Shown piece by piece: positions 46,746 to 64,000 of a stretch of DNA of 64,000 nt. The stretch's first letter is position 1. Every line of letters starts with the position of its first letter. A program made the position numbers and the translations under genes. The notes under the pieces were generated by a model. The model was not told the DNA's origin and searched no databases. It saw only the letters and a program-made list of their open reading frames with translations. The DNA comes from Desulfobulbaceae bacterium (GTDB lineage Bacteria > Desulfobacterota > Desulfobulbia > Desulfobulbales > SURF-16): the NCBI GenBank assembly GCA_024637145.1, contig JAGXFQ010000037.1, positions 44,506 through 108,505 on the forward strand, given 5' to 3'.

Positions 46746-47708
46746 TCAGCCGCGGGGGTGAAATTTCTGGTGAATGGCCTTGAGGCGGTCGCTCTCTACA
46801 TGGGTATAGATCTGGGTGGTGGCAATATCGGCATGGCCCAGCATCATTTGCACGGCCCGTAAATCCGCATCGTGGGCCAGGAGATGGCTGGCAAAGGAAT
46901 GGCGCAGGACATGGGGGGATATCTTTTTGCTGATGCCGGCGGTCCGAGCCCGTTCCTTGATGATCTGCCAGAAGCGGCCCCGGGTCATGCCCGTGCCCCG
47001 GCCGGTGACAAAGACCAGGGGGCTGGTCCGCTTCTTGATAAGGAGGGGCCGGCACATTTTGAGATAGGCGCCGAGGGTCTCCCTGGCCTCTTTGCCAAAG
47101 GGGACGAGGCGCTCCTTGTCGCCCTTGCCCAGCACCCGCAGAAAGCCGGCCTGCATATTCAGGGCGGCCAGGGGCAGAAAGACAAGCTCGGAGACGCGGA
47201 GACCCGTGGCATAGAGGAGTTGGAGCATGGCCTGGTCCCGCTGGCCCACCAGGGATGGGGGGGGATTCTGCAAGAGCTGGTCCACCTCGGTGACGGAGAG
47301 GACCTGGGGCAGGGAACGGCCTAATTTGGGAGAATCAAGATGGCTGGTGGGATCGGTGGTAATGATCTTTTCGCTGACCAGAAAACGAAAAAAGGCGCGA
47401 AAGCAGGAAAGCTTACGACTGAGGGAACGGCTGCTGACCCGGGCATTGTGGAGCGTAACGAAAAAGGCCCGCAGATGCTGGGGGGCGACGTCGGGGAGTA
47501 CCACTTTGCCTTTGTGGAGAAAGGCAAAAAGAACCTGCAGGTCGGCATGGTAGGCCGCCAGAGTATTGTGGGCCAGGCGCCGTTCCGCAGCCAGATAATG
47601 GAGAAAGATATCCCCACAGGCAATCATCTCGGCGGGCAGCTGGGCCGGCCTCTTTCTTAAGGGGCCGCGGCTGGGCGGAGATGGTTTCTGAGGCGGGTCA
47701 ATGGTCAT
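46746..47708 (-). CDS. Tyrosine recombinase XerC/XerD family
   Basis: LLYATGLRVSELVFL, HVLRHSFASHLL, LGHADIATTQIYTHV. Confidence 0.93.
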   Translation of the reverse strand: MTIDPPQKPSPPSRGPLRKRPAQLPAEMIACGDIFLHYLAAERRLAHNTLAAYHADLQVLFAFLHKGKVVLPDVAPQHLRAFFVTLHNARVSSRSLSRKLSCFRAFFRFLVSEKIITTDPTSHLDSPKLGRSLPQVLSVTEVDQLLQNPPPSLVGQRDQAMLQLLYATGLRVSELVFLPLAALNMQAGFLRVLGKGDKERLVPFGKEARETLGAYLKMCRPLLIKKRTSPLVFVTGRGTGMTRGRFWQIIKERARTAGISKKISPHVLRHSFASHLLAHDADLRAVQMMLGHADIATTQIYTHVESDRLKAIHQKFHPRG

Positions 47709-60762: not shown

Positions 60763-61476
60763 ATGCGTTGCCCAAAATGTAGTTATATCTCATTTGATAA
60801 AGTGACCTCCTGTGTGAACTGTGCCGCTGATGTAACGGAAATTGCCCACGCCTTAAACGGCACGGCCTTCAAGTCCCTGGGCACTTTTTACCTCGGCACC
60901 CTCATCCCTGATTATGCCCCCGCATTCGGCAGCGATCAGGTGGCTGAAGATTACTCTTTTGAGAGCGGTGCGGATGATCTTGATATCAGCATGGAGGCCA
61001 TGGATGATTTCGGTGATGTCCCTGATCTGCCCGGTGACTTCAGTGACAGAGATTTCTCTGTTGCCGGCTCCGGCCTTGCCGATTTTGAAGAGGAAGAGAT
61101 CTCCCTGGCAGGCCATGAGGTGCCTGATATGGACCTCTCCGCCTTTGAGACTGAGACCTCAGAGATGGATGATGAGGACAAGACGGTTATATACGCTAAT
61201 TCTGATGATGAGGATAAGACGGTTATATACGCCGATTCTGATGATGTTCCGGAATTCGACCTTGGCGGCATGGAATTTGAGGAGGATGTCGATCTTGAGT
61301 TTGCGCCGGAGGGCGGTGCCACCCTTGATCTTTCTGATATCGACCTGAGCCTGGGCGAGGATGAGCTGGAAATGGCCGGGGAGGAAGAGGTCGATCTTGG
61401 CGACCTGGAGATGGAGACCCAGGAGAAGAAAGAAAAAAAAGAAGACAAGGCTGAGCTTCCCGACCTGGAGATCTGA
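60763..61476 (+). CDS. Acidic protein with N-terminal zinc ribbon and 12-aa tandem repeat
   Basis: MRCPKCSYISFDKVTSCVNCAADV; (DDEDKTVIYA[N/D]S)x2. Confidence 0.7.
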   Translation: MRCPKCSYISFDKVTSCVNCAADVTEIAHALNGTAFKSLGTFYLGTLIPDYAPAFGSDQVAEDYSFESGADDLDISMEAMDDFGDVPDLPGDFSDRDFSVAGSGLADFEEEEISLAGHEVPDMDLSAFETETSEMDDEDKTVIYANSDDEDKTVIYADSDDVPEFDLGGMEFEEDVDLEFAPEGGATLDLSDIDLSLGEDELEMAGEEEVDLGDLEMETQEKKEKKEDKAELPDLEI

Positions 61477-61608: not shown

Positions 61609-61684
<76 letters not shown>

Positions 61685-61691
61685 AGACATT

Positions 61692-61730
61692 AAAGGGTTT
61701 GTGGCTTTTTGGCTGCAAACCCTTTTTTTT
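61692..61730 (+). terminator. Terminator after tRNA-Phe
   Basis: AAAGGGTTTG...CAAACCCTTT + TTTTT. Confidence 0.85.
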
Positions 61731-62057
61731 GTCTCTGGTCGTCCTATGGTCGTTGTGCCAAAAAAACATCTAATACGCTTGAACCTCTTTCCTTCGCTGG
61801 CCGGCGCTTTTTTGGGCGCTTCCCGCCCCTCCTTCCTGCCAATAATTCCTGAAAAATCGTTGACATAAGAACGCTTCTGGGTCATCTTCCTAACCAAATA
61901 AAATATCTTCGAACAGTTCGAAAAGGTGCCATGTTCAGGTTGTCCTCCTCTGCCAAGGCAGGAGGCAAGGGGGGCTTATTGCCATCATGGCTCTTCAGTT
62001 ATTGCAATAAGGGGAAAATCTGCCCACCTATAGGGGTGATATGACGGACAAGATTCC

Positions 62058-62075
62058 ACTTATTGCACTGTTATG
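62058..62075 (+). other. Candidate integron-type recombination half-site (L'-R'-like) ACTTATTGCACTGTTATG
   Basis: 14/18 match to the reverse complement of the half-site at 63287-63304; ends in TGTTATG. Confidence 0.4.
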
Positions 62076-62156
62076 TGCAAAAAAAATATTTAACTAACCA
62101 CAGAAGCCTCCTATCCTTTAAATTGTACAGAAAAACAATCTAATCAGAGAAACTAG

Positions 62157-63281
62157 ATGAATGAGATAGATAAAAGCCAAACTATAAAAATAGAAAATGA
62201 GAATGATGCATGGGAAATATTTGAAAAAGCATTAGAAGGAGAATTTGATGACCAATCAGATATTGAATTAACATTTTCAAATTGGCCACAAATAGATATT
62301 AAATTAAAAGGCGTAAAGCATAAGGCCTCGCTTACAGCAAAAAACATGGAGGGACTCGTTGAACTTCAAACGACTCTTTTCCGAACCTATGCGCTAACTG
62401 TACACAATAAATTAAACGCAAAGAATTTAACAAACGACGAAAAAGAAAAACTAACCATTATATTCCAAGTATCAGAAGGATCATCAGATGTTTGGGCTGA
62501 ATTAATCAAAGTATTATCTATACTAGCAAAAGATATGACAAAAAAACTAGAACCAAAACATTATGTTATAACTGTACTTGGTATTAGTCTCATTTGGGGC
62601 AGCACAGCAACACTAAGCACCTATCTTCAACACCAAAAAGATCTATTTGTCGCAGAACAACAAACAGTACAAAAAAAGAATGAAATTGATGAAAGAATTT
62701 TTGCCTCTGAACAAGAATTTAGAAAAATGGAAATTCTTACAAATGCATTTCAGTACAACCCACAACTAGAGCAAATTAGAGAAAGTGTTGATGCTATGAA
62801 TGCTAATTTGCTTCAAAAATTCTCTGATGCTGATGAAATTTCAGTTCAAGGAACAAAGAAAATAAAAAGCAAAACAATACAGCAAATATTCAAAAAGAAA
62901 AGAGTTGGAGCAGTGGAAGATAGGTTAGATGGTCTATTTAGAATAATTAAAGTAGACAGCTCAACACCAGACCACTTCAATGTTACAGTAAGAAATATAA
63001 GTGATGGAACAATAGTAAAAATCACAATACAGGATTCATACGTTATAGATAAAAAGAAAAAACAATGTCTTCAAGATGCTGAGTGGAGTAAAGTACCTGT
63101 CCTGTTACGGATGAACATAAAAAGACTCAGAGGCGTTATTGTTAACGCATCTATACTAAATGTTGAAGAGGCACCAGACTCTATCATTGACCTTATTAAC
63201 CAAGGAAAAACAGATATAAAAGTAACGTGGTCTGATAATAAAGGTTTTCAATACATTACAAAAAACAAGAACCATGGCTAA
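62157..63281 (+). CDS. Orphan protein with one predicted TM segment, candidate cassette-borne gene
   Basis: 374-aa ORF in AT-rich DNA; TM segment HYVITVLGISLIWGSTATLSTYL. Confidence 0.75.
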   Translation: MNEIDKSQTIKIENENDAWEIFEKALEGEFDDQSDIELTFSNWPQIDIKLKGVKHKASLTAKNMEGLVELQTTLFRTYALTVHNKLNAKNLTNDEKEKLTIIFQVSEGSSDVWAELIKVLSILAKDMTKKLEPKHYVITVLGISLIWGSTATLSTYLQHQKDLFVAEQQTVQKKNEIDERIFASEQEFRKMEILTNAFQYNPQLEQIRESVDAMNANLLQKFSDADEISVQGTKKIKSKTIQQIFKKKRVGAVEDRLDGLFRIIKVDSSTPDHFNVTVRNISDGTIVKITIQDSYVIDKKKKQCLQDAEWSKVPVLLRMNIKRLRGVIVNASILNVEEAPDSIIDLINQGKTDIKVTWSDNKGFQYITKNKNHG

Positions 63282-63286
63282 TATCA

Positions 63287-63304
63287 CATAACAATTCACT
63301 AAGC
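63287..63304 (+). other. Candidate attC R''-L'' half CATAACAATTCACTAAGC
   Basis: 6 bp after the stop codon of 62157..63281; resembles the attC start (TAACAATTC...). Confidence 0.4.
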
Positions 63305-63491
63305 ACGACGCGCGAGCACGCCAGTTTTAACGGCTTCGACCAACTCATTGATAGCAACAAAAACACGTTACCTGAGCAGCTCAGTTAACCTTATCAGCCC
63401 GTTGAAAAACTCCCATTTTCACTACAAAACAATTGAGTCACCAGCCTGATCGGTTAAAATGCCAAAAAAGCTCACCAACCAAGGGGTTCCA

Positions 63492-64000
63492 ATGGCTATC
63501 GGAAAACGCAACAAACCAAAACAGCAAACGCTCTGGGTGGCGACCAGTGATCTGGCGCCCCGAAGCGGTCACCCTTTTTACACCAGGCTCAACAGCCTTT
63601 TGGATGAAGATACCTTTGATGCATGGCTGGAGCAAGAGTGCGCGCTTTATTTCGCCGCTTGTGGCCGGCCATCGATTCCGCCGGGGGTGTACTTCCGGAT
63701 GCTCTTTATCGGCTACCTGGAGGGCTTCCAGTCCGAGCGCAACATCGCCTGGCATTGTGCCGATCGCATGTCACTACGGGATTTTCTGGGTTATCAACTC
63801 CACGAACGAACCCCCGATCATTCAAGCTTTACGATCTGGCGGCAGCGTCTGCCGCTTGGTCTTTACCGCACGGTTTTCCAGCGGATATTGGGCCTGGTGC
63901 ATCGCCATGGACTGATAGATGCCTATGCCGCCGGGGTGGATTCTTCCACCATTGAGGCCAATGCCTCCCTGCGTCGCCTGGCCCGGAAGGATAGCGGCGC
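63492..64000 (+). CDS. IS1182-like (DDE) transposase, truncated by window end
   Basis: Open frame from ATG 63492 to window end: MAIGKRNKPKQQTLWVATSDL...FRMLFIGYLEGFQSERNIAWHCADRMSLRDFLGY...GVDSSTIEANASLRRLA. Confidence 0.85.
   Translation, partial: MAIGKRNKPKQQTLWVATSDLAPRSGHPFYTRLNSLLDEDTFDAWLEQECALYFAACGRPSIPPGVYFRMLFIGYLEGFQSERNIAWHCADRMSLRDFLGYQLHERTPDHSSFTIWRQRLPLGLYRTVFQRILGLVHRHGLIDAYAAGVDSSTIEANASLRRLARKDSG

Follow-up and report, generated by a model that had tools for sequence, protein, structure and literature searches.

The AT-rich island near the end of the 64,000-nucleotide stretch of Desulfobulbaceae DNA analysed here (the window) is best explained as an integron gene cassette that was inserted at an orphan attI site, served by an integrase from elsewhere, and later interrupted by an insertion sequence (probability roughly 0.85). 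An integron integrase would have recombined the attC of the cassette, which carries a phage-type accessory gene, with an attI that has no integrase gene (intI) of its own, at the G|TT junction between positions 62070 and 62071; an IS1182-like element would later have inserted in the 3' part of attC, probably freezing the cassette in place. The attI itself appears to be one of several stand-alone copies, part of which at least would be the remains of extra platforms after the loss of intI, and which may still accept and exchange cassettes via an integrase encoded elsewhere in the cell. As far as sequences can tell, this reading is carried by the identity of the attI, the start of the cassette, an R'' that matches this start, a homologue with a complete attC, the repeated occurrence of stand-alone attI sites and the precise replacement of cassettes in relatives. 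A sequence-only reading of the locus had proposed a single, CALIN-like cassette without an integrase alongside; the single cassette without adjacent integrase stands, the likeness to a CALIN fails for want of an attC cluster, and the attI at the left edge had been missed.

The cassette and its boundaries

The island is a 1.2-kb unit with a GC content of 31-34%, against 50-65% in its flanks, and, as had been noted from the sequence, it is filled by a single ORF for a protein of 374 aa (62157-63281, forward strand, assigned to phrog_6191 by PHROG profile). It begins 386 bp past a tRNA-Phe gene (61609-61684). No sigma-70-like promoter match was found in 61690-62170, in keeping with the single, usually promoterless ORF of a gene cassette. 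The inverse boundary motifs TGTTATG and CATAACA reported earlier do match exactly, and a hand count returned the same 14/18 over the longer half-sites; the exact match is in fact longer than first noted, with GTTATGTG (62070-62077) and CACATAAC (63285-63292) being complementary at 8/8 positions. The cassette starts with G|TTATGTG at 62071, so that its 5' edge is the same G|TT junction as at attI sites next to intI, and its R'' is complementary to its own first bases. We thus delimit an AT-rich single-ORF unit from the start TTATGTG past the terminal R'' CACATAAC (62071-63394, forward strand), which is a cassette with a broken attC.

Two further observations concern the remainder of the window. 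A near-identical direct repeat of 36 bases (61168-61240) lies inside a 237-aa ORF (60763-61476) and encodes an acid-rich DDEDKTVIYA... motif. Positions 46773-46961 show weak similarity to the C-terminal part of IntI (46% over 63 aa), probably reflecting a XerC/D-type recombinase.

The left edge is an attI site

Over ~70 bp the left edge is 84-90% identical to attI sites that lie beside a complete intI in several relatives (G001:C66, G096:C7, G042:C2, G007:C10 and others; E about 1e-17 to 6e-19), among them 'Desulfobulbaceae bacterium BM506' (PKTX01, our G001) and Desulfocapsa sp. N3_15 (G042). In an alignment this attI immediately precedes intI in G001, G096, G042, G007, G015 (twice), G018, G019 and G038. 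All intI-adjacent copies are located between intI and the first cassette and end in (C/A)TG|TT, after which the cassette follows; it is this position and this ending that identify the element as attI. The full unit measures about 165-185 bp and comprises two copies of TTTTCCATnTTT...TTTAATATnnnAATAAGTGGAAA, the first of which overlaps the start codon of intI. The window copy (61999-62072, forward strand, delimited by its identity to the attI of relatives, with strand exchange at G|TT, between 62070 and 62071) has the sequence of these intI-to-first-cassette sites; core and right part are preserved, the left arm has partly degenerated, and the copy scores 75.6 bits with a profile (R1) whose training set includes the window copy itself.

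The left edge can therefore be regarded as a putative attI, whose recombination with attC by IntI we infer from the replacement of cassettes at orthologous stand-alone sites (see below). It had previously been read as an R' core; the edge is an attI rather than just such a core or a remnant of attC, which makes the locus an attI-plus-cassette unit and part of a genome-wide set of stand-alone attI sites. No trace of the intI that a complete integron would possess was found within 1.6 kb of the window attI. Five relatives with the tRNA-Phe have unrelated DNA after the tRNA, and no base-exact empty site of the window locus was recovered among them.

A half attC and an IS1182-like element at the right edge

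R'' starts at 63286, 5 bp past the stop codon of the ORF, and ACATAAC-AATTC-ACTAAGCACGACG (63286-63310, forward strand) fits the R''-spacer-L'' plan of attC sites, judged by its complementarity to the cassette start and by its half-attC score. Half-sites scoring as well as this one occur at 1.3e-5 per position in control DNA, and the chance expectation for such a half-site in the 12 bases after a stop is 1.6e-4; an exact 8-base complement would occur in those 12 bases with a chance of about 2e-4 at equal base composition, and of more in AT-rich DNA. The score of the window half-site is lower than that of every training site. The sequence-only reading had named the lack of an attC hit as a ground for rejecting it, and this applies in part: of a complete attC (R''-L''-L'-R'), the R''-L'' half after the ORF was the only part detected in the window, since an IS1182-like element begins at 63395. 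The bottom strand of 63281-63400 folds no better than shuffled sequences (z -0.69), as expected if the right half of attC is missing, and the left flank is likewise without significant structure. An Rfam scan returned matches to the tRNA only (a second, sub-threshold match falls on this tRNA as well) and none of attC type.

The IS1182-like element (63395-64000, forward strand; Pfam PF05598 and PF01609) consists of the DUF772 N-terminal part of a DDE transposase and is cut by the contig end. Its start was set by comparison with other copies of the IS, and a left end at this position supports the earlier suggestion that attC is interrupted at the adjacent IS. The window ends where its contig (C9) ends. 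Another contig (C31) opens with an exact 135-bp overlap with the end of the window and supplies the missing part of the transposase as well as the right end of the IS; TTAT borders the IS at either outer side, and other copies are also found at TTAN. C31 is likely the continuation of the window past the IS, as one of several possible paths given the contig break. Beyond the IS it reads CAGC|GTTGAGT, which fits GTTRRRY, and no recognisable L'-R' half with an arm complementary to L'' was found in this candidate continuation. The right half of attC would have been lost through the IS; in a predicted complete attC it would be close to CGTGCTTAGT-n5-GTT.

Other attI copies and intI fragments in the source genome

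The source genome harbours five stand-alone attI copies, on contigs C9 (the window), C39, C25, C12 and C8, two of which are incomplete. A repeated block of about 165 bp (61832-61996, forward strand) precedes the attI in the window, and copies of it, 88-90% identical, are found at C8:132433-132593 and C39:27366-27479; the 281-bp left flank of the cassette also recurs elsewhere in this genome. Between C9 and C39, similarity breaks off precisely at G|TT. Since the window attI shares the block with two other copies and has no trace of intI within 1.6 kb, it was probably copied.

The cargo of these sites differs. C39, where the attI lacks its left arm, carries the ABC-3C components CTD9 and MC5 together with a LmuB-like ATPase, and no attC was found at the end of this island; the ABC-three-component / Lamassu-like (LmuB) operon (L015 7482-10720) begins exactly at G|TTCGGTTG. 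The attI of C25 (L017 6712-6786; L003 842-1464) is followed by two small ORFs whose products resemble a toxin of the RelE/HigB type and a helix-turn-helix antitoxin, a pairing made by appearance. On C12, about 91 codons of intI remain beside the attI, followed by a cassette that starts with TTAGGC and whose attC begins with GCCTAAC. On C8 a repeat at the contig end cuts off the attI behind its left half.

In this genome intI itself occurs only as fragments, on C3, C22, C13 and C12, a status that is based on profile searches of an incomplete MAG (86%), from whose assembly an intact intI could be missing. The fragment on C3 (L042 1-4321) belongs to a degraded integron in which intI is partial (profile positions 101-315), an ATPase-like gene is preceded by an attC-like site, and the attI side has been invaded by an IS91-like element that encodes a tyrosine recombinase of its own.

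Stand-alone attI sites across the order

R1, which was built from 20 attI sites, matches in 101 of the 263 genomes of the order. For 39 genomes that were also searched for intI, an intact or partial intI (E <= 1e-28) lies within 1.5 kb of 22 of the 98 attI matches listed, and 76 have none; these counts include weakest attI matches that are unproven, and fragmentation can part an attI from its intI; a few of the stand-alone matches are near contig edges. At least one stand-alone match occurs in 36 of the 39 genomes among the matches listed. The pattern recurs in genomes that are closed or nearly so, which argues against fragmentation as its general cause: G058, for example, has six attI sites, of which one adjoins an intact intI and another a remnant of intI. 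A closer search found no trace of intI in the 1.6 kb upstream of most of the stand-alone sites examined.

These sites are often followed by the hallmarks of cassettes. Downstream of attI, attC-like hairpins reach a density of 1.02 per 10 kb on the strand where they are expected, against 0.32 on the opposite one and 0.12 in control DNA. At 17 of 39 attI loci a half-attC follows with an R'' exactly complementary to the start of the locus's own cassette; when starts were permuted between loci, the mean was 1.9 self-matching R'' and the maximum 8 in 2000 permutations. Because the variable bases of R'' were excluded from the score by which half-sites were found, this test is independent of the training set. 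The pairing of TGTTATG with CATAACA, whose absence from relatives would have spoken against a cassette, thus has its counterpart in these 17 loci.

Some peculiarities of individual sites deserve mention. Directly after the G of the attI cut site a GC-rich hairpin (ATAAGTGGACCGCTCCGCGCTCCAC or similar) occurs at G001:C25 (L095 4255), G001:C50 (L093 about 6200) and G148:3.54M (L152), and once also after an attC; it is possibly a small element that uses the G|TT junction. Stand-alone attI sites of the genus g53 (L148, L150, L155, L156) share 470-610 bp of upstream sequence with internal repeats and unlike intI, which may be the vehicle that spread them. The same attI core was also encountered in MAGs labelled Syntrophales/Syntrophaceae, Nitrospirota/Manganitrophaceae and Gammaproteobacteria (L161, L164, L165, L169, L172, L179, L180, L182), suggesting either a platform that moves between phyla or binning errors.

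Cassette exchange at orthologous sites

Two sets of orthologous stand-alone sites in sister species document a change of cassettes. The sites of G147 (0.82 Mb) and G152 (3.5 kb) share 97% identity over the 1.6 kb that lead up to the attI end CTG|TTA, and identity resumes (98%) at G|TTATGT; the cassettes in between differ, that of G147 being 525 bp long and that of G152 1203 bp. G152 yielded no integron integrase at E 1e-28 and neither site has one nearby; that of G147 is encoded 400 kb from its stand-alone attI. Similarly, sites in four species (G042:C67, G071:C33, G242:C112 and G240:C27) have a flank of about 1.6 kb in common, 90-97% identical and including a 36-codon remnant of the start of intI, and continue with four different sequences from G|TT on. 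All four genomes have an integrase elsewhere. The remnant indicates that a stand-alone site can arise when an extra platform loses its intI, and the four different first cassettes after it that the site stayed in use after this loss. On the simplest interpretation the integrase acted in trans at these sites, the alternative being an earlier integrase on an element since lost. Stand-alone sites thus probably remained cassette ports after the loss of intI, served in trans.

The 374-aa protein

A profile match over residues 5-340 (E 1.4e-76) places the protein in phrog_6191, a family of phage proteins with no known function; there was no Pfam or PADLOC assignment. One hydrophobic stretch was read by eye near residues 136-156, the middle region is helical, and the predicted structure has an unusable mean pLDDT of 35. 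The family is rare in the order (3/263 genomes), and no close homologues were found in genome contigs. Its closest homologue, 69% identical, lies in a cassette of G025 with a complete attC of 122 bp after it, in which L'' has an extrahelical base; homologues confined to conserved chromosomal loci, the outcome that would have counted against a cassette, were not what the comparison returned. The homologue in G001 (37%) adjoins the repressor of a Mu-like prophage at the prophage end, and further ones are known from Moraxella phage Mcat17, a Vibrio plasmid and a phage-like Syntrophotalea plasmid, in the last case next to a repressor-like gene. The repressor-adjacent position together with the single hydrophobic stretch leads us to suggest, at somewhat less than an even chance, superinfection exclusion or another lysogeny or defence function; the product would then be a lysogeny-module or defence-like membrane protein.

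Alternative explanations

The most serious rival is an ordinary platform from which intI was deleted, leaving attI and cassette as a dead relic that has received nothing since. Remnants of intI do lie beside some stand-alone attI sites (34 codons in G001:C46, about 91 in G000:C12, the 36 codons of the four-species site, and further ones in G058:3.044M, G235:C19 and G241:C20), and the copies in the source genome are all fragments. However, cassettes changed after the loss of intI at orthologous stand-alone sites, and the window site, devoid of any intI trace within 1.6 kb and sharing its upstream block with two other copies, was probably copied, so that we consider a dead relic possible but doubtful.

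The remaining alternatives dispense with a functional attI or with integrons altogether. A left repeat of the general palindromic, intergenic kind (REP/MITE-like) that came to lie near intI and cassettes by chance would agree with its dispersed occurrence and with a core that is an imperfect inverted repeat matching the profile on both strands, but is very unlikely given that every intI-adjacent copy falls precisely into the space from intI to the first cassette, with G|TT as the junction, that stand-alone copies are often followed by self-consistent cassettes, and that exchanges have their endpoints at G|TT. Off-target insertion into a chance chromosomal site without involvement of attI has precedents in attG insertions (as cited in PMC12901181 and PMC12444791); the resemblance of the target to real attI sites over ~70 bp leaves it only a slim chance. 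Finally, phage or IS activity next to a tRNA might have created an AT-rich island whose motifs are fortuitous, for which one could invoke the phage association of the gene family and the proximity of tRNA-Phe, the 3' side of which differs among relatives; no duplication of the tRNA 3' end was noticed, and an attI on the left, a half-attC on the right and a homologue in a cassette with a full attC make an origin unrelated to integrons hardly credible. A cassette at an orphan attI, later interrupted by an IS, is the reading we retain.

Relation to known systems and implications

Among described arrangements, a CALIN is similar in that the cassette sits in the chromosome without an adjacent integrase gene and is in principle mobilisable in trans by IntI (PMC12444791, PMC8618304). 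A CALIN, however, is a cluster of attC sites, two or more in PMC12444791, whereas the window has half of one attC plus an attI, and the stand-alone attI sites occur here, unlike in CALIN, in many copies per genome. Origins listed for CALIN in reviews are off-target insertion, loss of intI and rearrangement (PMC8618304). With the complete chromosomal integron (intI-attI-array) the window shares the attI family, the G|TT junction and the cassette in first place, but its site is without intI, and only fragments of intI occur elsewhere in the assembly. Xanthomonas platforms with inactivated intI likewise combine decay of intI with a platform left behind (PMC12444791); there intI, where kept, is always at the ancestral locus ilvD, while here several attI sites exist per genome and cassette exchange continued at sites devoid of intI. 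Insertion at attG (Loot et al. 2024, as cited in PMC12901181) also places a cassette outside the platform through an integrase in trans, yet attG sites, as presented there, are neither attI nor attC, and the target here is an attI. In the literature searched we found no description of genomes with several attI sites that lack intI, are kept vertically and go on exchanging cassettes, which is not proof of novelty; standard integron annotation may overlook such attI sites, which are absent from common detection tools.

At even odds, in our estimate, the integron in this order (including Desulfobulbaceae and Desulfocapsa) is a distributed one, in which a single integrase would serve several vertically inherited attI ports that exchange cassettes at fixed loci, with several 'first positions' in each genome. 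The customary picture of an integron has a single platform, a single attI and a single first cassette that is expressed. The cargo of the source genome is accessory and partly defensive in look, comprising an ABC-3C/Lamassu-like system, two genes reminiscent of a toxin-antitoxin module, and the phage-type membrane protein. Many stand-alone attI sites would give the cell several separate points of cassette entry and expression, would explain part of the cassettes that are found without an integrase, and would provide natural exchange experiments at fixed loci.
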